Source: a virus. From it: DNA of 22,221 nt. Position numbers and translations under genes: made by a program. Shown here one piece after another: positions 2,136-22,042 of the stretch. The notes beneath the pieces were generated by a model. It made no database searches and was not told the DNA's origin. It worked only from the letters and a program-made list of their open reading frames with translations. The first letter of the stretch is position 1. Every line of letters starts with the position of its first letter. The stretch is taken from the IMG/VR virus record IMGVR_UViG_3300032116_001438, positions 1 through 22,221 of that record, one strand, 5' to 3'.

Positions 2136-2143
2136 CATAAATA
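2136..2143 (+). promoter_or_regulatory. T4-type late promoter octamer (CATAAATA)
   Basis: CATAAATA stands 5 nt before the ATG at 2149. With T4 geometry the transcript would begin at or just before the start codon, giving a nearly leaderless mRNA for the 83 aa protein and the ligase fusion behind it. Confidence 0.6.
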
Positions 2144-2148
2144 ATTCT

Positions 2149-2400
2149 ATGACTAAATTCGACCAAGTACTTAATGAACTTATTAACAATGCAAATCCGT
2201 CTAATCAAGTTCAACAAACACAAAATCAACAAACAAACACAAATCCTCAACAAACAAATAACCCTGCACAACCTGTAACTAATAATAACAATCAACAAAA
2301 ACCTTTAGATATTAAGGCTCTTTCTCAGCAATTGGCTAAAACCACAAATCCACAAGAAGTAGAAAAAATTCTTACCCCTTTACTTCAAATCAAAAAATAA
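2149..2400 (+). CDS. Gln/Asn-rich late protein, 83 aa
   Basis: The N-terminus, MTKFDQVLNELI, fits the capsid-targeting pattern with a possible cut after L-N-E (residue 10). Residues about 18-52 are a low-complexity Q/N/T/P tract, and the C-terminus is a short helical region (LSQQLAKTTNPQEVEKIL). It lacks catalytic motifs and is likely a small head-associated or scaffolding-type protein; that is inference. It is first in a two-gene late unit: the next gene's ATG follows its stop directly, with no recognisable ribosome-binding site, so the fusion protein downstream is probably translated by coupling. Confidence 0.6.
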   Translation: MTKFDQVLNELINNANPSNQVQQTQNQQTNTNPQQTNNPAQPVTNNNNQQKPLDIKALSQQLAKTTNPQEVEKILTPLLQIKK

Positions 2401-4992
2401 ATGATTAAAACGTCTTTTACTTCTTTTTTTCAAGAATCTTATAAAAGACCAGTTAAAAAAAAATATTGGTCTCCTAAAAAAATAAAAAATGTAAAAGAAA
2501 ATGTTTTTACATTTAAAAATCATTATCAATTAATCAATGAAGGTGGTCAGGCTGCTGAGAATTTGATAGTAGATTTAAAAAAAGCGTCTGAAAATGAAAA
2601 TTTAAAATATGTACGTGCTAATCCCACATCAGAAGTCATTGACGAGATACAAAGACTTCTCACACTCCTTAGAAGTAAAGGATTTGTAGATTCTAGAGAA
2701 CCTTCTTATTATTTGGGATCTAGTAGATTATTTGCAATTAAAGCTGGTATTAGAGCACCAGAACCTAATGAAATAGAAACTAAAGAAATTATCCAAAAAG
2801 CTTTAGCAACTAAAAAAGACTTTGGAGATATTGATTTAGATGTTTATTTTAAAGATGGTGTAACTACTAAAATAGTTAAAGATTTTTTAAATTCAGAATT
2901 TCCAGGAAAATACGCTGCAGATACAGCAGCGGAAGAAGTTAATACTGCTGTAGTTGTAGGAAATTCTAATAATGTTATTCAAATTGATATTGTTAACATT
3001 AAAGGTAAAGAAAAATACTTTGGGGTTTCTCAATTTGCTAGTATGGCAGATATGGCTCAAGGAATTAAAGGAGTAATAAGAGATCTTTTAATAAGAGGTA
3101 TTGCTGCTTCAACTTCTATTAATCCAGAAAAAACAAAAATATTAGACCAAGTTATTAAAAATACCGAAGAGTATAAAAATTTCGTAGAAAAAAATAAAAA
3201 GAACGGCGAAATCACTTATGACATTCGTTATACTTTAGGTGGGGATGGATTAGCTTACAAGATTAATTGGATGGTTAATGGAGTAGCTAAGAGTTACAGT
3301 AAAGGTGGGGTAAAATTTGATCAATTACAACGATTTGTTAGTGGCAAAGAAGTAGACCCAGTCACCTATGAAGATTTAGATACATTGGCTGCTATTTTAG
3401 GTTTTGCTAACCCAGATCATTTAAAACACGTGGTTAAAATGGCTGAATTAGTTTCCACTTTTGATTCAGAACGTAAACAAAAACTTTGGGACAATTTGGT
3501 TAAAAATATTAAAACTAAACTTCCTAATTTAGCTACTGGTCGTACTCAAGGTCAAATTTCTAATCAAGAAGCTAAAAGTGCTTTTGAATATCTTAAACCT
3601 TTCTTTGGTGATGTAAACACAGAAGAGTACACTCAATTATTCGGAGAAAGTTTAAATGAAGCGGTTAAAATGGTTTCCATTCCACACATAGACCAAATGA
3701 CTGCTAAAGATTTTTGTAATCTTTTTAGTGGAGGTGCTTGGGAGGTTTCTGAAAAATATGACGGTTCTAACGTTTCTTTCGGTTTAACTGAAGAAGGTCA
3801 GATTTTCGTCAAATCTAAAAAGGGAAATCCTGTTACAGATGCTTCTGAATTTTATCAACAAGCGAAACTTTATGATAATGATATTTTTGAAGGGTTTGCG
3901 AGATTTTTAGAAACTCTACAAAAAAGTAAATTAGAACGTCTTTTAGAACAACTTAATGGAATGATAGATTCCCCTATTCAAATTTTCGGAGAGATGTTCA
4001 GTAAAGCTCACATGAATGTTATTCCTTATGCCGAAGAATTAATTGGTAATGGAGCTGTTGTTATTTTCGGGATAGTAAAGTTAGATTCTCCTAAAGGAAC
4101 AGATATTACCACTACCAAAGAAGGAAAAGTCATCAAAGATAAAATTTTAGAACTTCTTAATAATTCTACTGATTGGAAATTTTACGATAAAAAACCTCTA
4201 GCTTTAGATATTGATGAGACTATTAAGTCACAAATTCAAAAAACATGCAGTGCTGAAAATATGGCGGTAATGGCTTCACGAAAAAGAACAGGCAATGAAG
4301 CTGAAATGAAAGCCAAAGCTGTTAAGGAGTTTGAAATTTTAAAATCACTTATTAAAAAAAATCTTTTAGGTTCTTTGGGTACAGTTCCTTCTTCTTTAGG
4401 AGCTTCAGAAATTGAAGGCGCTATTATTCGTAATATGGAAACTGGGGCTATTGCCAAGTTGGTTGATCTGGAAGGTTTTGGTAGAAGAAGAGCAGAACAA
4501 TGGGCTGGAGTAGATGCTTTAAAAGATTATCGTAAAAATCTTTATAAACAACTTCAAGAAGATGTATTAAAAAATGCTGATATTTTTATTTTGGATGATA
4601 AACAAGTTCAAAAATTAACCAATGCAATGGAGACTAAGGGTTCCCGCTTTGGTTCTATGGATGAAATGTTAGATGTTCTTTATGGTGATGCAGCGGAAGA
4701 AGTTCAATTTAAAGAAGCTAAACAAATGGTTTTAGATTTAAATAATTCTTTAAACAATTATAAAAAGAATATTGAAGAAGCTTTAACAAAAATCAACAAA
4801 GAAGATTTTAAAGCTTTAGAAGATACTAAAAAAGCTATTGAATCAGAAAAAAGAAGAATTGATCAATTTGTATCAGAATTAAATAAAAGAATTTCTGACC
4901 AACAAAACCCTTATTTGTCTATTATTCGATTTGTTTTGGGTCCTAAAACTTTAGAAGAATTGAGTAAAAAATTTACTCAAGTAATAAAGTAA
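2401..4992 (+). CDS. Nucleotidyltransferase-RNA ligase fusion protein
   Basis: This 863 aa protein has two enzyme-like parts. Residues about 100-200 show Pol-beta-type nucleotidyltransferase signatures: LGSSR (105-109), GDIDLDV (D143, D145, D147) and a third acid in IQIDIV (D196). Residues about 425-690 show nucleotidyl ligase motifs: motif I EKYDGS with nucleophile K452, GEM, IFGIV, motif IV EGAII (E672) and motif V-like AIAKLVD (K686). The last ~170 residues are helical and coiled-coil-rich. The N-terminus (MIKTSFTSFFQE) is a weak capsid-targeting match. Internal sites INE|G (E47) and LNE|A (E420) fall before the NTase and ligase domains and fit prohead-protease specificity. Expected reactions are nucleotide addition and RNA (possibly DNA) end joining; substrates are unknown. 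Confidence 0.7.
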   Translation: MIKTSFTSFFQESYKRPVKKKYWSPKKIKNVKENVFTFKNHYQLINEGGQAAENLIVDLKKASENENLKYVRANPTSEVIDEIQRLLTLLRSKGFVDSREPSYYLGSSRLFAIKAGIRAPEPNEIETKEIIQKALATKKDFGDIDLDVYFKDGVTTKIVKDFLNSEFPGKYAADTAAEEVNTAVVVGNSNNVIQIDIVNIKGKEKYFGVSQFASMADMAQGIKGVIRDLLIRGIAASTSINPEKTKILDQVIKNTEEYKNFVEKNKKNGEITYDIRYTLGGDGLAYKINWMVNGVAKSYSKGGVKFDQLQRFVSGKEVDPVTYEDLDTLAAILGFANPDHLKHVVKMAELVSTFDSERKQKLWDNLVKNIKTKLPNLATGRTQGQISNQEAKSAFEYLKPFFGDVNTEEYTQLFGESLNEAVKMVSIPHIDQMTAKDFCNLFSGGAWEVSEKYDGSNVSFGLTEEGQIFVKSKKGNPVTDASEFYQQAKLYDNDIFEGFARFLETLQKSKLERLLEQLNGMIDSPIQIFGEMFSKAHMNVIPYAEELIGNGAVVIFGIVKLDSPKGTDITTTKEGKVIKDKILELLNNSTDWKFYDKKPLALDIDETIKSQIQKTCSAENMAVMASRKRTGNEAEMKAKAVKEFEILKSLIKKNLLGSLGTVPSSLGASEIEGAIIRNMETGAIAKLVDLEGFGRRRAEQWAGVDALKDYRKNLYKQLQEDVLKNADIFILDDKQVQKLTNAMETKGSRFGSMDEMLDVLYGDAAEEVQFKEAKQMVLDLNNSLNNYKKNIEEALTKINKEDFKALEDTKKAIESEKRRIDQFVSELNKRISDQQNPYLSIIRFVLGPKTLEELSKKFTQVIK

Positions 4993-5316: not shown

Positions 5317-5751
5317 ATGTCTTATGTCTCTACAAAAATTATTGAACTAGGTTCTTGTGCTTTTAGACAGTGGAGAGCAGAAGACACTCACTGTAAGTAT
5401 GTACATGGGTATCAACTAAAAGCTAAATTTTGGTTTGAAGGAGAACTAGATGACCGAAACTGGGTGGTAAATTTTGGTGGTTTGAAGGAACTGAAATACA
5501 AACTACAAAATCAATTCGATCACACACTTTGTATTGCAGCAGACGATCCTCTTATTGATATTTTTGAACAACTCCATGACGCTGGCGGGTGTAATCTCAG
5601 AGTCATGAATGCAGTTGGAATTGAAATGACAGCTAAATACTGCTTCAAAGTAGCCAATGAATTTGTTCAAAATATGACCGAAGGAAGATGTAAAGTGACT
5701 AAAGTTGAAGTTTGGGAACATGATTTAAATAGTGCTATTTATCAAGAATGA
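5317..5751 (+). CDS. queD: QueD-like 6-carboxytetrahydropterin synthase, variant
   Basis: A 144 aa member of the 6-pyruvoyl-tetrahydropterin synthase fold. QueD makes 6-carboxy-tetrahydropterin from dihydroneopterin triphosphate, the second step to preQ0/queuosine-type deazaguanines. Visible motifs are the catalytic Cys region HCKYVHGY (C26, H30), VNFGGLK (51-57), FDHTL (67-71), GIE with E103, and VEVWEH (E134, H135). The usual first zinc His (FxAAH) is replaced by FRQWR and the usual HGH is HGY, so two of three canonical zinc ligands appear changed, as I recall for other T4-like phage members. The gene overlaps the next start by four bases and lies one gene away from queE, supporting a shared pathway. 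Confidence 0.8.
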   Translation: MSYVSTKIIELGSCAFRQWRAEDTHCKYVHGYQLKAKFWFEGELDDRNWVVNFGGLKELKYKLQNQFDHTLCIAADDPLIDIFEQLHDAGGCNLRVMNAVGIEMTAKYCFKVANEFVQNMTEGRCKVTKVEVWEHDLNSAIYQE

Positions 5752-5963: not shown

Positions 5964-6710
5964 ATGAATGATTATCTATTTCTTAGTGACGATAAAATTT
6001 TCTATACTCTAGAAGGTGAAGGAGAGTATATTGGACAACCTTCAGTCTTTATGAGAATGTCCATGTGTAATTTGACCTGTAAAGGTTTCTCTTCATCAGA
6101 TAGTCCAAATGGGTGTGATTCTTTTATTTCTTGGTCTGTTAAAAATAAAATGTCATTTGAAGAAATCTTTCAGATGATGGAAGAGAACAATTATATCGAA
6201 CACCTTCGTCAAGGAGCAATTTTTAAATTAACTGGAGGGGAACCAATGATCAATCAAAAAGGTTTACTTCGTTTCATGGAGACTTTTGTAGAAAAATATA
6301 AATTTGTTCCACGTATTGATTTTGAAACCAATGCTACCCTTTTGCCAGATGAGCGTTGGGTCAATGAATTTTCAGCTACTTTTACCACTTCTCCTAAATT
6401 GACTACTAATGGAGATCCAGAAGAAAAAACCTATAAGCCAGAAGTATTGAAATGGCATGCAGATCATAATTCTGGATTTAAATTTGTAATCACTTCAGAT
6501 CGTGATATTGAAGAAATTTGGAGAAAGTATGTAGAAGATGAAGAAGGTATTAATGTACCTTTGAATCGTATTTGGTTTATGCCTTGTTGTGGTTCTCGAG
6601 AAGAACATATCGAAAAAGCACCAGCAGTAGCTGAATATGCTAAAGCAATGCATGTTAATTTTAGTCCAAGATTACATTTATTGCTGTGGAATATGGCTCT
6701 TCGTGTTTGA
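5964..6710 (+). CDS. queE: QueE-like 7-carboxy-7-deazaguanine synthase (radical SAM)
   Basis: The protein has 248 aa, the normal QueE length. It carries LEGEGEYIGQPSVFMR, then the cluster region: C35 and C39 (CNLTC) with the third Cys at C51 (GCDSF), a CX3CX11C spacing instead of the textbook CX3CX2C. LTGGEP follows at about 89-94, the SAM-binding motif, and the C-terminus SPRLHLLLWN is typical of QueE. It rearranges 6-carboxy-tetrahydropterin to 7-carboxy-7-deazaguanine, the step after QueD. In phages these genes feed deazaguanine modification of DNA or queuosine in tRNA; no queC, folE or base-exchange gene is visible here, so the end product is not determined. Confidence 0.88.
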   Translation: MNDYLFLSDDKIFYTLEGEGEYIGQPSVFMRMSMCNLTCKGFSSSDSPNGCDSFISWSVKNKMSFEEIFQMMEENNYIEHLRQGAIFKLTGGEPMINQKGLLRFMETFVEKYKFVPRIDFETNATLLPDERWVNEFSATFTTSPKLTTNGDPEEKTYKPEVLKWHADHNSGFKFVITSDRDIEEIWRKYVEDEEGINVPLNRIWFMPCCGSREEHIEKAPAVAEYAKAMHVNFSPRLHLLLWNMALRV

Positions 6711-7382: not shown

Positions 7383-8762
7383 ATGGTTAATTTTAGTTTA
7401 TTAGTAGAAAATATTTTATTAAATGAAAATGTTGTGGGTGTACCTGACTGGTTTAATGAAATTTTAAATAAACATAAAGAATTATTCGGATCTGAAATAA
7501 CAGACGAAGATTTGTTTGATTTTTTTGATTTACTAGATGATTCTAAAATATCAGAAGAAGAGGGATTAAAAGATCTAGGCAAAATTCGTATTTTAGATCT
7601 CATGAAAACGTTTTATGATTCTATGAATCCTAAACCAAAAGATCTTAACGAATTTAAAACAGACATTACCAATAATTCTAATGTTTATGAAAAGAAAATT
7701 AACAATTTAAAAAATTTAAATAGACAAAACCGACTCAATTGGAAATTAACAAATCCAAAAATTGCTGATTTGAAAACCAGATCTGAAAAAGTAGCAGGTC
7801 AAAAAGGAGCAGACACTCTTATATCAGAGTATGGTAATGATTTTATTATCCCTGCTGTTCAAAGAATTGTTAAAAAACGTATAGATTTTTTTACTAGAAT
7901 TGCCACTTTAAAAAGCCCCACTACACCATTTGCTAATCTTATTTTAGATGTTTTTAAATACCCTTTACAATACCGTTCAGGGTCTAAAAAATATACTAGC
8001 GATTTTGAAGAAGTGGATAAATTTTATATTGACAATTTAATTGAATTATCATTAGCTGCTCAGGATTTTTATGCTACTGAAATGGTTCAATTAAAATTGA
8101 CACCTCTTAAACAAATTAAAAACCAACAACAAAATGTTAACGCTGGTTTAAATTTATTTGAATTAATTGTTGGTCAAATTTTAAATGAAGCGAATAAAAT
8201 TGAAATTAAAACAGGGCCGGGTGGAGAAAAACTTTTTATAATTAAAGATGATAAAAATAATCTTAAATTTCAAGATACAGAAAAAAATGTATTAACTAAA
8301 GCACAATCATTTGATCCTAAAATTACATCTTTAGGTCAATTAAAAACAAGAGGTGATGTTTTAGGTAAACTGTTATCAACAAACCAGCCGTCTACACCAG
8401 GCACCCAATCTCAAACTAAACCCCAAGAAGCATCGCCACAGGTAGTGAATACTTTAAAACAAGAACTTTTATCTGACACACAAATACCAAATAAAATTAA
8501 TTTTTATCAAGGCAAACCAGTAAAATATAATTTAGTAAATTTTGAGGGTAAACCAAGGCAAGGTGAACAATTACAGACTAATCCTGAAAATTATAAAATA
8601 AACAAACTTAAAGATAACCCAAGAGCAAAAAATTTAATCGGACTTTTAAACCAAGTCGCTCAATATTCTAAAAAGAAACCAGGAGCAGGAGAAAGATTAC
8701 AACAATTAGGACAATTAGGAGCGTCAATTGCTTCTGCAGCAGGGGCTAAATTATATGGATAA
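7383..8762 (+). CDS. Late protein with two capsid-targeting-like segments, 459 aa
   Basis: No catalytic family recognised. The N-terminus, MVNFSLLVENILLNE, ends in L-N-E and is followed by an acidic helical region (DEDLFDFFDLLDD) and a long Lys-rich helical body. At residues about 256-270 a second, similar segment appears (NLFELIVGQILNEA), again with L-N-E|A. The part behind it (KIEIKTGPGGEKLFIIKDD) is compact, then a Pro/Gln-rich linker (STPGTQSQTKPQEASPQ) leads to an Ala/Gly-rich C-terminus. The layout suggests two modules each headed by a protease site, as for packaged internal head proteins. A late octamer lies upstream. Function unknown. Confidence 0.6.
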   Translation: MVNFSLLVENILLNENVVGVPDWFNEILNKHKELFGSEITDEDLFDFFDLLDDSKISEEEGLKDLGKIRILDLMKTFYDSMNPKPKDLNEFKTDITNNSNVYEKKINNLKNLNRQNRLNWKLTNPKIADLKTRSEKVAGQKGADTLISEYGNDFIIPAVQRIVKKRIDFFTRIATLKSPTTPFANLILDVFKYPLQYRSGSKKYTSDFEEVDKFYIDNLIELSLAAQDFYATEMVQLKLTPLKQIKNQQQNVNAGLNLFELIVGQILNEANKIEIKTGPGGEKLFIIKDDKNNLKFQDTEKNVLTKAQSFDPKITSLGQLKTRGDVLGKLLSTNQPSTPGTQSQTKPQEASPQVVNTLKQELLSDTQIPNKINFYQGKPVKYNLVNFEGKPRQGEQLQTNPENYKINKLKDNPRAKNLIGLLNQVAQYSKKKPGAGERLQQLGQLGASIASAAGAKLYG

Positions 8763-8991: not shown

Positions 8992-9988
8992 ATTTCATTA
9001 ACGCCTCTACTCCAGTAAATGAATTTTCTACTATAAATTTATAAGGAAATTCATTCAAATTTAAAGAGCAACAAACTTCATTGATGTCTTTAAATTTTTT
9101 CATTTCTTTAGGCCATATAAATATTTTTTTATTTTGTTTAATGACTTGTTTAATTTTGCGGTCCATTTGTTTGTTATCTTTGTCATTGTCATAAACATAG
9201 ATAATTTCATTAAACAAACATCTATTTAAAAATGATTCTTGTCTTTCTGTCGGTGTGGAACCTCCAATTGCTACAGCGTTTTTTACAAACATCGCGTCAA
9301 TAGGTCCTTCAAACACAAAAATATAAGGATTATCTTGATTTAAATTATTCTCCCCGTAAAGGCACTTTTCTCCATATTTGGTAAGATATTTTGGGTATTC
9401 ATCGCCAGACAGTGATCTACTTTGATAAGACTCTATCTTTCCTGATTCAGAATAAAAAGGTATAATCAAACGATTTTTATGAACATAATCTTCACAAGAA
9501 ACATATAATGACTTTGGTCTATTAACAGCTTCAAATATCTTTCTCTTTTGGCAATACTCTTTGGCTTGAGTTATTAATTTTAATTCCCTTTCTTGTGTGT
9601 AGAACTCACATTCTTTATCGTTACATATATCAATACTATCTGTTGGAATAGGTGGGATATCAAATGTCTTGGTTTCTTCTTTTTCTAAGAGTTTTGCATT
9701 AAGGTCTACAGAACAAGTAAAACGAGAAGCCTCTTTTAAAATCTCGGAATAATTTTGATGGGTGGCTTCTTGAAGCCAATTAATTTCTTTCCAAGATTTA
9801 CAACAATTAAAACAATAAAAGTAACGTTCGTCTACAAAATAAAATAAACGCCTTTTTCTTCCTTGAGAATGTCCTTCATGACAAACACAACATTCTGCAT
9901 TGTATACCCTTTGGTGTTTTTTATAAACAGGGCGTTTACATCGAGTGTAAAATGTTTGAATAACATAATCTTGAGGCAATCCTTCCAC
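8978..9988 (-). CDS. DNA primase (T4 gp61-like)
   Basis: The protein has 336 aa. The N-terminal zinc-binding domain has ECCVC (C33/C36) and YCFNC (C59/C62). The C-terminal TOPRIM-type core has IFVFEGPIDAMFV (E227, D231), the IGGSTP loop and YVYDNDKDN (D267, D269, D271). These match T4 gp61-type primases, which make short RNA primers with the replicative helicase. The full frame begins with GTG at 9988; the purine-rich AAAGAGGTGG overlaps that codon, so an in-frame TTG at 9979 with better spacing is a possible alternative start. It is convergent with the 78 aa late gene. Length is typical for the family. Confidence 0.85.
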   Translation of the reverse strand: MEGLPQDYVIQTFYTRCKRPVYKKHQRVYNAECCVCHEGHSQGRKRRLFYFVDERYFYCFNCCKSWKEINWLQEATHQNYSEILKEASRFTCSVDLNAKLLEKEETKTFDIPPIPTDSIDICNDKECEFYTQERELKLITQAKEYCQKRKIFEAVNRPKSLYVSCEDYVHKNRLIIPFYSESGKIESYQSRSLSGDEYPKYLTKYGEKCLYGENNLNQDNPYIFVFEGPIDAMFVKNAVAIGGSTPTERQESFLNRCLFNEIIYVYDNDKDNKQMDRKIKQVIKQNKKIFIWPKEMKKFKDINEVCCSLNLNEFPYKFIVENSFTGVEALMKFKTR

Positions 9989-10025
9989 CTCTTTAGTATA
10001 TTATCAATTAAAAAAAATAAAAGGA

Positions 10026-10448
10026 TTATTTTTGGCCTAAAGAAATGTCTCTCTGGCGTTTAGGTGCATTAAGAATAAAACCTTCAAGAATAGTAGCAAT
10101 TTCTTTAGCATCACTTGAGATTTTAATAATACGAGAAGATAGTTCCCTGGAGATACCCATAAAAAGACTACCATTACGATCAATTTCACTCACTAATTTT
10201 TGTAAACAATCTGATTCAGTATTTTGCATTTCTTTTGCAAATTCTTGTAATTTAGAAATATAGTTTGATAAACCACCACTGTCACCAAAAGATTGAGAAA
10301 CCGGAGCAGGTTCTACATTGATACTATCAGGACTGGCAACACCACCTTCTTTGGGTGTTAGTTCTTCTTCTGGTGTTTGTGTCTCTTCTGGAGAGACTTC
10401 ATCCTGCTCTGATAAAAAAACCTGTTGGTATAAAGAGTCAAATTTCAT
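10026..10448 (-). CDS. Late protein with capsid-targeting-like N-terminus, 140 aa
   Basis: The start, MKFDSLYQQVFLSE, is a strong match to the targeting pattern with a cut after L-S-E (residue 14). An acidic Pro/Thr/Glu linker follows to about residue 50, then a helical region (YISKLQEFAKEMQ, CLQKLVSEIDRNG, LSSRIIKISSDAKEI). No enzyme motif. The upstream octamer CATAAATA on the minus strand (10462-10469) supports late expression. Probably a head or internal protein; the exact role is unknown. Confidence 0.6.
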   Translation of the reverse strand: MKFDSLYQQVFLSEQDEVSPEETQTPEEELTPKEGGVASPDSINVEPAPVSQSFGDSGGLSNYISKLQEFAKEMQNTESDCLQKLVSEIDRNGSLFMGISRELSSRIIKISSDAKEIATILEGFILNAPKRQRDISLGQK

Positions 10449-10822: not shown

Positions 10823-11581
10823 ATCTACTTCAGAATTTAAATTTAAAAGGGGTATTAATTGGTAATTTTCATTTTTTTTGTTTAACCAAAGAACGTACAA
10901 ATTTTCTATTTTTATAGAAGTATGATCTTCTATAAATTTTTTATAAAAACCTAATTGCAAACTATAAGTGTTGTATTCACAAACTTCTAAATGATTTAAA
11001 GGTTCTAAAAATTTTTTCTTAAATTTACTAGAGTAATTAATTTCTTTGTTAGTTTTAAAATCATAAATTTCGTAACATTCTTTTTTTGTGTTATAACAAA
11101 GCATGTCTATCATACCACAAATTTTAGTATTATTGACATCACCAATAACCAACTCATTTTTAATCGGAATTAAGAACCCTTTAGTGTCGTTATAAAAATT
11201 ATTAAATTGTTTTAAAAGTGTTTCTAGTGTCTCTCTTAATTCATTATGTTGTTCCTTGGTAAGTTGAGAAGAAACCCATTCTCTGTCATAAGGAACTACT
11301 TTATTATTGAAATAATTTTCAGCATAGTTGTGAAATACTGTTCCCAATACTTTAGAGTATAAATTTTTTTGATCCCAACTTTTTATAATCTCTTCACTAG
11401 TCAATCCAAATTCTTTTCCTTTAATTGTTGCCCATTTTTCTTTTTCAAAAGGTTCTTTGAGAGATTCTAATAAACCAGTAACTGAATATTTTGCTGATGG
11501 TTTATTGTCTATAAGATAGGTGTGAGTTCTATCTAAAAATACAATTCTATTAAAAATAGAAAGTTCTTTTAAAATATCCAT
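10763..11581 (-). CDS. PD-(D/E)XK exonuclease, RecB-like
   Basis: An upstream in-frame extension to 11668 exists but overlaps the Cys-rich gene. The ATG at 11581 forms a TAATG junction with it and gives a sensible 272 aa start (MDILKELSIFNR). Motifs in order: GTVFHNYAE (H84, E88), a Glu in NELVIGD (E143), ICGMIDML (D159), YDFKTNKE (D174, K176) and the QLGFY element (Q209, Y213) that RecB-family nucleases place after the active site. This is the typical layout of phage RecB/Cas4-like exonucleases acting in recombination or DNA turnover. No helicase domain and no four-Cys cluster is visible. The 3' end overlaps the convergent membrane-protein gene by 60 bp. Confidence 0.8.
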   Translation of the reverse strand: MDILKELSIFNRIVFLDRTHTYLIDNKPSAKYSVTGLLESLKEPFEKEKWATIKGKEFGLTSEEIIKSWDQKNLYSKVLGTVFHNYAENYFNNKVVPYDREWVSSQLTKEQHNELRETLETLLKQFNNFYNDTKGFLIPIKNELVIGDVNNTKICGMIDMLCYNTKKECYEIYDFKTNKEINYSSKFKKKFLEPLNHLEVCEYNTYSLQLGFYKKFIEDHTSIKIENLYVLWLNKKNENYQLIPLLNLNSEVDLVIQKFTKDQINENTSNVK

Positions 11582-11902: not shown

Positions 11903-12223
11903 TTATTTTTTGGGAGGAGTTTGTTTTTTTAATTCAGAATTTTTAACTTTTTTGAAACGTTTTTGTGCATCTTCCATGGTCATACAAGTCCATCCTAGAG
12001 TACCCCAGTGATTAGCGGAGGGATACATTTCTGAAGGAGGAATTTTATTACCATTAATCTCATATCCTTCATGAGATTTAATAATAATAACTTCATATCG
12101 CTTATTCGTGTTTTTAATCTCTGAATCAATTAAACTTTGTTCATAGATAGCTACATTATTTTCACGTATGATTTGTTTATAACAAAAATTTTTATTTGTA
12201 ATTTTTTTTCCAAGTATTTTCAT
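11903..12223 (-). CDS. Hypothetical protein, 106 aa
   Basis: A compact protein with YEVIIIKSHEGYEINGNKIPP, then a conserved-looking core PSANHWGTLGWTC and a Lys-rich C-terminus. The WG-x-x-GWT signature with a preceding P-S/E occurs in small conserved phage and bacterial hypothetical proteins; no activity is known to me. The ATG at 12223 is the natural start, following the terminator at 12241-12272, so the gene must have its own promoter or read-through. Confidence 0.55.
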   Translation of the reverse strand: MKILGKKITNKNFCYKQIIRENNVAIYEQSLIDSEIKNTNKRYEVIIIKSHEGYEINGNKIPPSEMYPSANHWGTLGWTCMTMEDAQKRFKKVKNSELKKQTPPKK

Positions 12224-12240
12224 ATTATTATTAAAAGTGT

Positions 12241-12272
12241 AAAAGGCTCTCTATATTTCAAGAGAGCCTTTT
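12241..12272 (-). terminator. Rho-independent terminator
   Basis: A perfect 12-bp stem (AAAAGGCTCTCT paired with AGAGAGCCTTTT) with an 8-nt loop. On the minus strand the stem is followed by T-rich sequence, so it ends transcription from the gene at 12295-12516. The A/T ends make it potentially bidirectional. Confidence 0.8.
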
Positions 12273-12294
12273 ATGACACACAACACCAAATTTA

Positions 12295-12516
12295 TTATTC
12301 TTCTACTCGTGCAAAACGTCCATAAGAATCACGGACGTTGTGGAATCGAGGACGTAGAATAGCTGTATTAGATCGGTCAACAAATCCAACAAATTCATAC
12401 TTTGAAGGATTAAGGTACTTACTAATAATATTCTCTTTAATACTGCGTGGAGCATCAGAGTCCACGTAGAATCGAGAGATGTCGTTAATGTTCTTTGTTG
12501 TTACTGTATTACTCAT
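12295..12516 (-). CDS. Hypothetical protein, 73 aa
   Basis: Starts MSNTVTTKNIND and contains SDAPRSIKENIISKYL and a C-terminal VRDSYGRFARVEE. I do not recognise the family. It has its own terminator just downstream (12241-12272), and a TATATAAG-like AT-rich stretch 4-20 nt upstream of the ATG may be part of its promoter. A terminator of this quality behind a 73 aa gene suggests strong or early transcription, which is inference. Confidence 0.55.
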   Translation of the reverse strand: MSNTVTTKNINDISRFYVDSDAPRSIKENIISKYLNPSKYEFVGFVDRSNTAILRPRFHNVRDSYGRFARVEE

Positions 12517-13974: not shown

Positions 13975-13990
13975 CAGATTTAGAAAATTT
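13958..13990 (-). repeat. Inverted repeat, copy next to the Hsp20 stop
   Basis: The minus strand here reads TTTTCTAAATCTGTTGG then ACACTAGGGACATT. It matches the plus strand at 14508-14542 with a few indels and substitutions; the core TGTCCCTAGTGTCCAACAGA (plus strand, 13959-13978) differs from the other copy only by two compensating one-base indels. Confidence 0.6.
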
Positions 13991-14475
13991 TAATCGACCT
14001 TAATGTCTATATTATGGACTTCAGGTTGTTTTACGGGAACGGTTACTCGCAAAAGACCGTCTACGTATGTTGATGTGATGTTTTTAGCATCTGTGTTTTT
14101 GTTTAAGGTAAAAGATAAACTCCCTTTGCGTTTACTAATTCCTTTACGGACATAAGTTGATTCGGGTTCATCATTACTTTCATCTTTATCGACATTAATG
14201 TTAAGTTTACCATCTTGTACTTTTACATTAATGTGATTTTTACCTACACCTGCTAAGGCTACTTCAACTATATAAGAAAGAGGTTCCCCTTCTTTATTTG
14301 TTACAGCCTTAACATTGTAAGGATATACTGCATTCGGGATTTCGAAAGCTTTTTCAATATCTCCGAATATGGATTTAAACCAGCTATCATTGAACAATGC
14401 AGGAAGCTGGTAGCCTGTATTGTTATAGTGACCCACTGTATAAGTGGGATTATATGTTGTTATTTTTGTTGTCAT
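13990..14475 (-). CDS. Small heat-shock protein (Hsp20/alpha-crystallin)
   Basis: The protein has 161 aa. Residues about 50-160 form an alpha-crystallin domain: YIVEVALAGVGKNHINVKVQDGKL in two pieces, then GISKRKGSLSFTLN (family pattern GIAxRxFxRxFxL) and GLLRVTVPVK near the end. The N-terminal arm (LPALFNDSWFKSIFGDIEKAF) resembles IbpA-type arms. It holds unfolding proteins in an ATP-independent way; Hsp20 is common in T4-like cyanophages and relatives. AGGA lies 13 nt before the ATG. The gene sits between a pair of inverted repeats, one touching its stop codon and the other about 33 nt upstream of its start. Confidence 0.9.
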   Translation of the reverse strand: MTTKITTYNPTYTVGHYNNTGYQLPALFNDSWFKSIFGDIEKAFEIPNAVYPYNVKAVTNKEGEPLSYIVEVALAGVGKNHINVKVQDGKLNINVDKDESNDEPESTYVRKGISKRKGSLSFTLNKNTDAKNITSTYVDGLLRVTVPVKQPEVHNIDIKVD

Positions 14476-18015: not shown

Positions 18016-18579
18016 TTATTGATTAATAGCAACACCAACTTCTTGAGGAGTATTGGTTTGTTGTGAAAAATCAGCAGTGACTACTTTGGAATCTAAATCT
18101 GATGTATCAGAATAAGAAGTATCGCCGTATTGATTATCAGTATTAGGAGAAAAATCAACATCAGGAAGAGGATTTGCTTCTTCTTTTTTAGCTAAAAGAG
18201 TTTCAAGATCAGTAACAGATTTGCCGTGATCTTTTAAAATACCAACAAGATCGTCTCTTTCTGCTTTAAGTTTTTGGTAATTTTCAGATCCGGGTTCTGC
18301 TTTAAGAAGAGCTGCTGTAACCTTATTATAACGCCGAGCAAATTTTTTATTGATATATTTGCTTTCCAAAATTTGCTGATAGGCTTCTTCTAGTTTTTTT
18401 TCATCATTCTTTTTAGAAGAGTTATTTTCTTTTTTACTTTTAGCTTTTTTAATAGCAAGGTCTTTGGCTTTTAAATAATCTTGTGAATCAATCTTACCGT
18501 CACCAGTTAAATCTTTCTTTTTGCCTTCATTAATTTGGAGATAAGCTTGTTCTAACAATAATTGATCTTGAGACTTCAT
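18016..18579 (-). CDS. Late protein with EF-hand/dockerin-like loop, 187 aa
   Basis: The N-terminus, MKSQDQLLLEQAYLQINEGK, carries an I-N-E|G site (E18). Right behind it residues 23-34 form a calcium-loop pattern, DLTGDGKIDSQD (ligands D23, T25, D27, K29 backbone, D31, D34), as in EF-hand and dockerin modules. A second targeting-like segment LEEAYQQILESK appears at 63-74. Then come Lys-rich helices and an acidic Asp/Ser tail (YSDTSDLDSKVV). Small phage proteins with a DLTGDGKVD-type loop are common in T4-like marine phages; the partner is unknown. A late octamer lies 6 nt before the ATG. Probably virion-associated. Confidence 0.6.
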   Translation of the reverse strand: MKSQDQLLLEQAYLQINEGKKKDLTGDGKIDSQDYLKAKDLAIKKAKSKKENNSSKKNDEKKLEEAYQQILESKYINKKFARRYNKVTAALLKAEPGSENYQKLKAERDDLVGILKDHGKSVTDLETLLAKKEEANPLPDVDFSPNTDNQYGDTSYSDTSDLDSKVVTADFSQQTNTPQEVGVAINQ

Positions 18580-19538: not shown

Positions 19539-19814
19539 TTATCCTGCAATTCCACCAACAGTACGGAGAAAGTCTCCTACTGCTTCTTGGACATCTTCAA
19601 AATTATCCCAAAAAGCTTCACCGTCTTGATGTTCACCTTCTTTAATCCAATTCTTGAATGCCATAACCATTTCATCCTTTACTGGGTGTGAAAGTGTGTC
19701 GAAATCGTGAGTTTGAGAAGATGTTTGTTCTTCTCTCATTTTTTGTTGGTTCCACTGATCAAGACTTTCATCTTCAGCTATGTAATTATTTACAATACTA
19801 TCAAATTTGTTCAT
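19539..19814 (-). CDS. Late protein with IAE cleavage site, 91 aa
   Basis: The N-terminus, MNKFDSIVNNYIAE, ends in I-A-E, the same tripeptide that T4 IPIII is cut after. The rest is acidic and helical (HPVKDEMVMAFKNWIKEGE, EAFWDNFEDVQEAVGDF). A minus-strand octamer AATAAATA ends 6 nt before the ATG. Likely a small internal or head protein; function unknown. Confidence 0.6.
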   Translation of the reverse strand: MNKFDSIVNNYIAEDESLDQWNQQKMREEQTSSQTHDFDTLSHPVKDEMVMAFKNWIKEGEHQDGEAFWDNFEDVQEAVGDFLRTVGGIAG

Positions 19815-21178: not shown

Positions 21179-21250
21179 CTGAAGTGGATGGACTCGAACC
21201 ATCAACCATTCGCTTAACAGGCGAACGCTCTGCCATTGAGCTACACTTCA
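21179..21250 (-). tRNA. tRNA-Asn(GTT)
   Basis: TGAAGTG/CACTTCA acceptor, D arm GCTC/GAGC, anticodon arm TTCGC-CTGTTAA-GCGAA with anticodon GTT, T arm GATGG-TTCGAGT-CCATC. G discriminator, no encoded CCA. Confidence 0.92.
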
Positions 21251-21262
21251 TTAAATAATTTT

Positions 21263-21631
21263 ATGATACTTAAACACGTCAAAGATGTCATACAAGGAAA
21301 AACGTCTTTAAATAAGAAAAGATCTTCTAAATGGCCTAATGTTCGTAAAAAACATTTAGAAAAATTTCCAACTTGTGCGGTTTGTAGTGGTACCAAAAAA
21401 ATTGAAGTTCATCATATCCAACCTTTTAATCAAAAACCTGAATTAGAATTAAATTTTAACAATTTAATTTCTCTTTGTGAAGATAAATCTTATGGTGTTT
21501 GTTGTCACCTATTTGTAGGACATTTAGGTAATTACAAAAACATTAATCCTAATGTGGTAAATGATTCTAAAGTTTGGAATGATAAGTTAAAAATTAAGGC
21601 AGTTCCTCATTCAGATTTGGTGGATGAATAA
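21263..21631 (+). CDS. HNH endonuclease
   Basis: An upstream in-frame start lies inside the tRNA-Asn gene, so the ATG at 21263 (MILKHVKDVIQG) is used; 122 aa. HNH features: CAVCSG (zinc Cys pair), IEVHHIQPF (catalytic HH), then an Asn in NFNNLISLC and a further CH (CCHLFVGH). Such compact HNH enzymes are frequent free-standing nucleases in T4-like phages and may home. It is inserted in the tRNA cluster, on the opposite strand. The ATG is preceded by CATTAAATAA plus four bases, as at 6741. Its 3' end overlaps a convergent coiled-coil gene by 38 bp. Confidence 0.82.
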   Translation: MILKHVKDVIQGKTSLNKKRSSKWPNVRKKHLEKFPTCAVCSGTKKIEVHHIQPFNQKPELELNFNNLISLCEDKSYGVCCHLFVGHLGNYKNINPNVVNDSKVWNDKLKIKAVPHSDLVDE

Positions 21632-21764
21632 TGTGTTTAATCTCGTCTTGGAGACGTTTGATTTCATTGTTCCATCCTTTCACCACATCTTTTTTGCGGC
21701 GTTTGGTATCTTCTAGTTCTTTAGTGAGTTGATATACTCGTTCTTGTTTTTCTTTTTCTTGCAT
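21594..21764 (-). CDS. Coiled-coil protein, 56 aa
   Basis: ATG at 21764. Residues 1-45 are heptad-like and highly charged (KQERVYQLTKELEDTKRRKK, then NNEIKRLQDEIKHII), with a short C-terminal tail PPNLNEELP that ends in L-N-E-E-L. It overlaps the HNH gene end on the other strand. Function unknown; helical small phage proteins of this type are frequent. Confidence 0.5.
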   Translation of the reverse strand: MQEKEKQERVYQLTKELEDTKRRKKDVVKGWNNEIKRLQDEIKHIIHPPNLNEELP

Positions 21765-21780
21765 AAATTTTATTGTAAAG

Positions 21781-21865
21781 TGGTGGGCAGTATTGGACTC
21801 GAACCAATGAACTCCGAAGAGGGAAGATTTACAGTCTTCTGTAATTGCCGCTATACGAACTACCC
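21781..21865 (-). tRNA. tRNA-Tyr(GTA)
   Basis: 85 nt with encoded CCA. GGGTAGT/ACTGCCC acceptor, anticodon arm GAAGA-CTGTAAA-TCTTC, long class II variable arm, T arm ATTGG-TTCGAGT-CCAAT. Confidence 0.93.
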
Positions 21866-21877
21866 ATTTAAATTAAC

Positions 21878-21950
21878 TAGACCCAGAGGGATTCGAACCC
21901 CCAACCAAGGCGTTATGAGCACCCTGCTCTGACCATTGAGCTATGAGTCT
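21878..21950 (-). tRNA. tRNA with CAT anticodon (Met or Ile2)
   Basis: AGACTCA/TGGGTCT acceptor, D arm GCTC/GAGC, anticodon arm GGGTG-CTCATAA-CGCCT, T arm GGGGG-TTCGAAT-CCCTC; no encoded CCA. Acceptor pairing A1-U72 is unlike initiator tRNA. Elongator Met and lysidine-modified Ile cannot be separated from sequence alone. Confidence 0.9.
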
Positions 21951-21956
21951 TTAAAT

Positions 21957-22042
21957 TGGTACTCGAGGTGGGACTCGAACCCACACACCATTACTGATAA
22001 GGGATTTTAAGTCCCTTGCGTCTGCCATTTCGCCACTCGAGC
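21957..22042 (-). tRNA. tRNA-Leu(TAA)
   Basis: 86 nt with encoded CCA. GCTCGAG/CTCGAGT acceptor, anticodon arm AGGGA-CTTAAAA-TCCCT, class II variable arm, T arm GTGGG-TTCGAGT-CCCAC. Confidence 0.93.

Follow-up and report, generated by a model that had tools for sequence, protein, structure and literature searches.

A predicted nucleotidyltransferase-RNA ligase fusion, probably a capsid-targeted and head protease-cleaved precursor, in an apparently T4-like virus

A gene at 2401..4992 (+ strand) of a 22,221-nt virus fragment (IMG/VR IMGVR_UViG_3300032116_001438, the whole of which is referred to as the window) encodes a precursor consisting of a leader, a Pol-beta-type nucleotidyltransferase and an RNA ligase, as judged from its translation, profile matches, alignment and a structural model. 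Its assignment as a transferase-ligase fusion of a T4-type phage is well supported by comparison with relatives, and the source appears to be a large T4-like virus of bacteria. The product is probably a late, capsid-targeted polyprotein that would be cut by a gp21-type protease into two injected RNA-repair enzymes.

The reading frame is uninterrupted and specifies 863 aa. The motif positions given in the original prediction were verified, i.e., G106-S107-S108, D143-I-D145-L-D147, IQID196, EKYDGS (with K452), IEGAII from residue 671, and K686, as were INE|GG at residues 45–49 and LNE|AV at 418–422, and nearly all of these motif and site residues are invariant, or almost so, in alignments of homologues. 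The frame, the catalytic residues, the Pfam and PHROG ligase matches and the fold matches agree with its claim that one gene carries both a nucleotidyltransferase and a nucleotidyl ligase. Structure prediction supported both domains, residues 48–420 being of Pol-beta type and the full model matching nucleotidyl ligases. The full-length AlphaFold2 (AF2) model, from a 19-row alignment, had a pLDDT of 73.6, with values below 50 at residues 1–47, 300–324, 378–382, 415–419, 724–731, 763–769 and 861–863; two of these low-confidence segments, 1–47 and 415–419, stop where the cuts are proposed.

The transferase (residues 48–420; 2542..3660, +) was recognised from the AF2 model and PDB fold matches. 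Its GSS motif (residues 106–108; 2716..2724, +) is invariant in the fused homologues, with GS invariant across alignment A6, and is followed by DIDLD (D143, D145 and D147; 2827..2841, +) and by a third catalytic aspartate, D196 of IQID (2986..2988, +), both located from sequence and alignments. G106-S107, D143/D145 and D196 are invariant and make up the GS...DxD...D pattern of the Pol-beta superfamily, D143 and D145 being the likely metal ligands. Modelled alone, the transferase gave a pLDDT of 85.8 and a pTM of 0.80, and all of its top 50 PDB fold matches (50/50) belonged to the Pol-beta superfamily, the best having an E-value of 0.029 and none being individually significant; they include TUTases, OAS1, Pol beta, AsfvPolX, CCA-adding enzymes and a SpoT-type synthetase. 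By sequence, residues 48–420 had no meaningful match in Pfam, PHROGs or NCBIfam, and PDB searches returned only chance-level matches. The RlaP profile PF10127, which matched control genomes, had no match in the 863-aa protein (E 1) or in four relatives (E 10), and membership of RlaP was rejected because the profile does not fit. A cellular origin was likewise rejected, as a search of 84,980 species genomes found no relative of the transferase or the ligase.

The ligase part (residues 421–863; 3661..4989, +) comprises an adenylyltransferase domain and an all-helical C-terminal part, according to Pfam, PHROG and Foldseek. The Pfam family RNA_ligase (PF09414) spans residues 447–688 (E = 1.8e-6; 28.7 bits against a cut-off of 27), and the PHROG match is phrog_548, RNA ligase (E = 2.2e-7). 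The RNA-ligase motifs are conserved in homologues: the predicted adenylated lysine K452 of motif I (EKYDGS; 3754..3756, +), invariant in alignment A7; FGEMF (motif III); IEGAII (motif IV, 671–676); and the motif V lysine K686 (4456..4458, +), placed by alignment. With the full model, Foldseek returned 33 PDB nucleotidyl ligases at E <= 0.001, including a Naegleria RNA ligase, T4 Rnl1, tRNA ligases and DNA ligases. The DNA ligases, together with the Pol beta and AsfvPolX matches, would suit a packaged pair that acts on DNA, filling ends and sealing the injected genome in a minimal end-joining-like manner, since DNA repair, too, employs polymerases of the Pol-beta type and ligases. However, the best family match is RNA_ligase, and in the AF2 model residues 690–862 are all-helical (at modest confidence) and lack an OB fold, which favours an RNA ligase over a DNA ligase; moreover, a relative with a 195,888-bp genome, G004, carries a gene that reads as its own DNA ligase. 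A DNA-acting pair is, on this evidence, quite improbable, and residues 421–863 are predicted, from sequence and model, to be an ATP-dependent RNA ligase of the PF09414 superfamily. G004 also has a second RNA ligase (9613-10149, −; locus L075) that lacks both a CTS-like leader and a late octamer, and so offers a helpful comparison as a presumably non-packaged enzyme.

Residues 1–47 (2401..2541, +) form a leader or propeptide, which coincides exactly with a segment of pLDDT below 50 and is variable in homologues. It begins with MIKTSFTSFF, resembling a capsid-targeting helix. In T4, the head protease gp21 cleaves after L/I-X-E, and CTS leaders suffice for packaging into the head (PMC9026906). 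A site of this form, I45-N46-E47|G48 (site 1; 2533..2541, +), is predicted at the end of the leader from its conservation in 18 homologues: in INE|GGQAA, P1 is E in 18/18 and P3 is L or I in 17/18. The leaders of the homologues range in length from 12 aa (MKLVQIRKLLLE) to 52 aa, and are longer still in locus L064, with little sequence in common, but always end in [L/I/M]-x-E directly before the conserved domain, which starts abruptly with GGQAAENL. In some relatives they are short, CTS-like leaders of 12–14 aa, such as MSSFKSLIQSILNE. Among the 14 fused sequences of alignment A5 (identity down to about 60%), E47 marks the only position at which [L/I]-x-E is retained in 14/14. Such triplets have a background frequency of about 1.1% of positions in one relative's proteome, and close to N-termini across that whole proteome they rise only to 1.4–1.8% against about 1.1%, so that lone L-x-E triplets mean little and the weight lies on their being conserved at boundaries that otherwise vary. 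By this measure the cleavage site proposed before the transferase holds, the glutamate being kept in all 18 homologues after freely varying leaders. A further site proposed at FFQE (residues 9–12) does not: its P3 is Phe, homologues have FFKK or FFCK at this place, and short leaders are without it. FFQE was rejected as a cut site for its P3 Phe and lack of conservation, and is better read as part of the targeting helix.

The second predicted head-protease site, L418-N419-E420|A421 (site 2; 3652..3660, +), lies between the two enzymes and was identified from conservation, low pLDDT and alignment with a split-gene relative. About thirty related loci were found in IMG/VR. In two of them, L061 and L062, the transferase and ligase are separate, adjacent genes; those of L062 encode 392 aa and 468 aa, overlap by 4 nt, and each product has its own leader ending in E. 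Both loci share the gene neighbourhood of the window, with which L062 is syntenic: genes for a GIY-YIG endonuclease and a small CTS-like protein, together with two conserved ORFs, lie upstream, and QueD, QueE and a kinase downstream. The stand-alone ligase of L062 starts MNLSFSNYMLVKE|AIKM, and the end of this leader (VKE|AIKM) aligns with site 2 (LNE|AVKM); what is an internal site in the fusion is thus the end of a separate gene's leader in L062. In the fused homologues, P1 at site 2 is E in 13/14 despite insertions and deletions in the linker. P3 is mostly L or I, with V or M in some homologues and EEK in L012 as the exception; the variants found directly ahead of AVKM are LNE, LIEE, VTE, IEEK, IQE, LGE, ISE, MTE and LSE.

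This looser P3 leaves room for a protein that is packaged and loses its leader while the transferase and ligase stay together as one bifunctional enzyme, with LNE (418–420) being an uncut, conserved feature of the linker, and a fusion would indeed keep cooperating activities together. Such an arrangement seems rather unlikely given that in L062 the enzymes are two chains and the leader of the ligase stops at the position aligned with site 2, and that the glutamate is kept amid changing linker residues and indels, next to residues 415–419, which are predicted to be disordered. Cleavage between the enzymes is preferred, and the E420 site of the original prediction is upheld by its conservation and by the L062 alignment. 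The presence of cleavable sites both ahead of the transferase and between the domains is well supported at the level of prediction.

Three other loci (L064-L066) carry the transferase gene followed directly by a gene for a protein of 1,024–1,088 aa with ligase motifs and an NMNAT/cytidylyltransferase-like domain (L064 7060-10290, L065 7052-10315, L066 7053-10124). This fusion hints that NAD metabolism is coupled to the same module.

Searches by tblastn with the full protein and with the homologous transferases found no close relatives in annotated phages. Foldseek against viral models matched A0A2L0UZB9 of Agrobacterium phage Atu_ph07 (277 aa, E 4.4e-5), which by its matching length would be the 277-aa CDS AUZ94877.1; this CDS overlaps a ligase-like gene, AUZ94878.1. 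From the Atu_ph07 transferase relative, tblastn reached Sinorhizobium phage Phosso, Prevotella Lak phages and the Pseudomonas PA5oct group, and in three of these four (Atu_ph07, Phosso, Lak and PA5oct) the transferase relative has a ligase-like gene as a direct or close neighbour. A search of Atu_ph07 with the A6 profile gave no match, so the transferase there is tied to the fusion by its structure, its gene neighbours and a weak profile match (hhalign, E 0.001, probability 21.6%). The link to PA5oct is distant, with this same weak score for the transferase, aided by the Foldseek match to Atu_ph07; the ligase link is supported by profile comparison (E 5.8e-6, probability 85%). GDID is invariant in the relatives from all four as well, while D147 is not. 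Atu_ph07 (AUZ94877-AUZ94878) and PA5oct (EST35_0231 and EST35_0228) have the same transferase-ligase pairing in cultured jumbo phages, but as separate, leaderless genes of very low identity to the fusion, and the pairing is unrecognised in their annotation.

The transferase relatives of the four jumbo phages start with MGGRAF, MGGAAF, MSGNAF or MSGMAI, and these M(G/S)G-x-A starts are equivalent to the predicted mature N-terminus of the fusion. The PA5oct transferase relative EST35_0231 is annotated 'structural protein, ESI-MS/MS', and the ligase-like EST35_0228, three genes upstream, has no MS flag. These observations bear on whether the fusion might be a late but non-packaged, intracellular RNA-repair protein with coincidental L-x-E triplets. 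T4 Rnl1 and other known phage RNA ligases do act post-infection, and the separate RNA ligase of G004 has no CTS-like leader. Yet coincidence would have to account for variable leaders that always end in [L/I/M]-x-E at the conserved domain, for the short CTS-like leaders of relatives, for leaderless relatives that begin at the mature position, and for a relative annotated as a virion protein, and this makes a non-packaged fusion quite improbable compared with a packaged precursor.

A T4-type late promoter octamer (CATAAATA; 2136..2143, +) confirmed the late octamer reported at 2136. It lies 5 nt before the ATG of a small gene (2149..2400, +) whose translation is a Q/N-rich protein of 83 aa with a T4 CTS-like N-terminus, MTKFDQVLNE|. 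The transferase-ligase gene begins directly after it in the same direction, and a similar small gene (MSKFESLLNTMLTE...) occupies the equivalent place in L062. The 83-aa product is a probable small internal head protein of the same operon. At homologous loci, an octamer was found 9–24 nt before the transferase start codon in 6/18 cases against 0.18 expected (Poisson P 4e-8, uncorrected for relatedness), and in five other loci (L001, L002, L003, L004 and L010) one lies about 300 nt upstream, before a small gene, as in the window; L005, L011, L012 and L065 have no octamer within 700 nt. In a relative of 198,847 bp (G001), no 7-mer occurs upstream of ORFs as often as ATAAATA (42/221), which precedes the portal, protease, scaffold and sheath genes. 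Across the whole window this 7-mer is not enriched (14 found, 15.9 expected), so it is its position that counts. Genome-wide in a relative, CTS-like leaders and late octamers show a modest association (Fisher p = 0.028). Late expression of the transferase-ligase gene is a well-supported prediction from these positioned octamers.

A gp21-family protease (Peptidase_S77) is encoded in four relatives (G001, G004, G005 and G008). The 22-kb window has no such gene, being a fragment from which that part of the genome is missing, and none turned up in the contigs of L062 and L066, which are partial. Packaging and cleavage of the precursor are well supported as predictions. The closest parallels are the T4 internal proteins and Alt, with which the fusion shares a leader ending in L/I-x-E, late octamers, a gp21-family protease in relatives and a predicted location in the head; it differs in having RNA-repair enzymes as cargo and in a predicted second, internal site that would divide a single precursor into two enzymes. 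For Alt, trimming at either end is reported, but no division into two enzymes (PMC9026906). Polyvalent proteins, such as P1 DdrB and the N4 virion RNA polymerase, are likewise multi-domain virion cargo that is delivered early and sometimes processed, but they often carry their own peptidase domains, whereas the fusion would be cut by an external head protease (PMC5512222). No description of a virion-packaged RNA ligase, or of split cargo of this kind, was found in the open-access literature searched.

Jumbo phages are already recognised to pair a Pol-beta nucleotidyltransferase with an RNA ligase for repair, RlaP being predicted to restore nucleotides ahead of sealing (PMC7824862); this order of events suits damage by nucleases that excise a nucleotide, for instance RloC (PMC2610378). 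The present fusion resembles the jumbo-phage RlaP and ATP-grasp RNA ligase systems in tying a Pol-beta transferase to an RNA ligase and in the predicted restoration of nucleotides (PMC7824862), but has no detectable RlaP membership, is late, carries a leader and cut sites, and is fused in one chain. It also resembles T4 Rnl1/Pnk, in that a phage RNA ligase would act on broken RNA and T4 Rnl1 is among the structural matches. The T4 enzymes are made after infection and are unfused; for the present fusion no accompanying Pnk was found, and its ligase part is predicted to be carried in the virion. Breaks of the PrrC type leave a 5'-OH and a 2',3'-cyclic phosphate. Searches of the large relatives recognised no polynucleotide kinase/phosphatase (no HAD_PNKP, and AAA_33 below cut-off; a divergent enzyme is possible), so repair of such breaks would need host or unrecognised healing enzymes. 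G001 has 17 tRNA genes and the window has four (21179-22042), making tRNA a plausible substrate of the enzyme pair. RNA repair is the likely function of the fusion, and an anti-defence role is hypothesised.

In the proposed mechanism, the precursor would be made late and brought into the prohead core by its N-terminal leader. The gp21-type head protease would release the leader by cutting after E47, and would separate the transferase (48–420) from the ATP-dependent RNA ligase (421–863) by cutting after E420. Both mature enzymes would remain in the head and enter the host alongside the DNA, where the transferase may replace nucleotides lost at broken RNA 3' ends and the ligase reseal the strand, with tRNA as the likeliest substrate. 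Sequence and comparison give us the two domains with their catalytic residues, the conserved sites, the late promoter, the split-gene homologue and the gp21 genes of relatives, and from these we infer packaging, cleavage, injection, the substrate and a part in defeating RNA-cutting defences.

The RNA repair known from phages is mounted once infection has begun, which is late when a defence nuclease stops translation. If the mechanism is correct, head-carried enzymes would be at work while translation still runs, their supply would be safe from a block of translation, and the head protease would be used for splitting a polyprotein of injected cargo. We suggest, tentatively, that this capsid-delivered, protease-split RNA-repair kit could be in the host as soon as infection begins and counter RNA-cutting immunity ahead of all phage gene expression. 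The signature of a late octamer, an L/I-x-E leader and an enzyme domain would also allow injected effectors to be listed in uncultured large phages.

Four more genes of the window have CTS-like starts (e.g., MVNFSLLVENILLNE and MNKFDSIVNNYIAE) with a late octamer 6–13 nt upstream of each, and are candidates for additional packaged proteins (7383-8762, +; 10026-10448, −; 18016-18579, −; 19539-19814, −). In G001 (L017-L026), a leader family, MN(K/N/R)D..LI(F/A)EAY, occurs on otherwise unlike proteins, several of them behind late octamers (examples at 10879-11334, 11944-12312, 72734-73666 and 166558-167043), and looks like a common capsid-targeting leader. The window also carries homologues of QueD (5317-5751) and QueE (5964-6710), which suggests 7-deazaguanine modification of DNA or tRNA, a gene for an Hsp20 small heat-shock protein (13990-14475, −), and a phage tmRNA (17402-17861, −) that matches Rfam RF00023 over its full length with 118 bits and has the predicted tag EAEYIFNNADEFLAGVEEDECLLAA.
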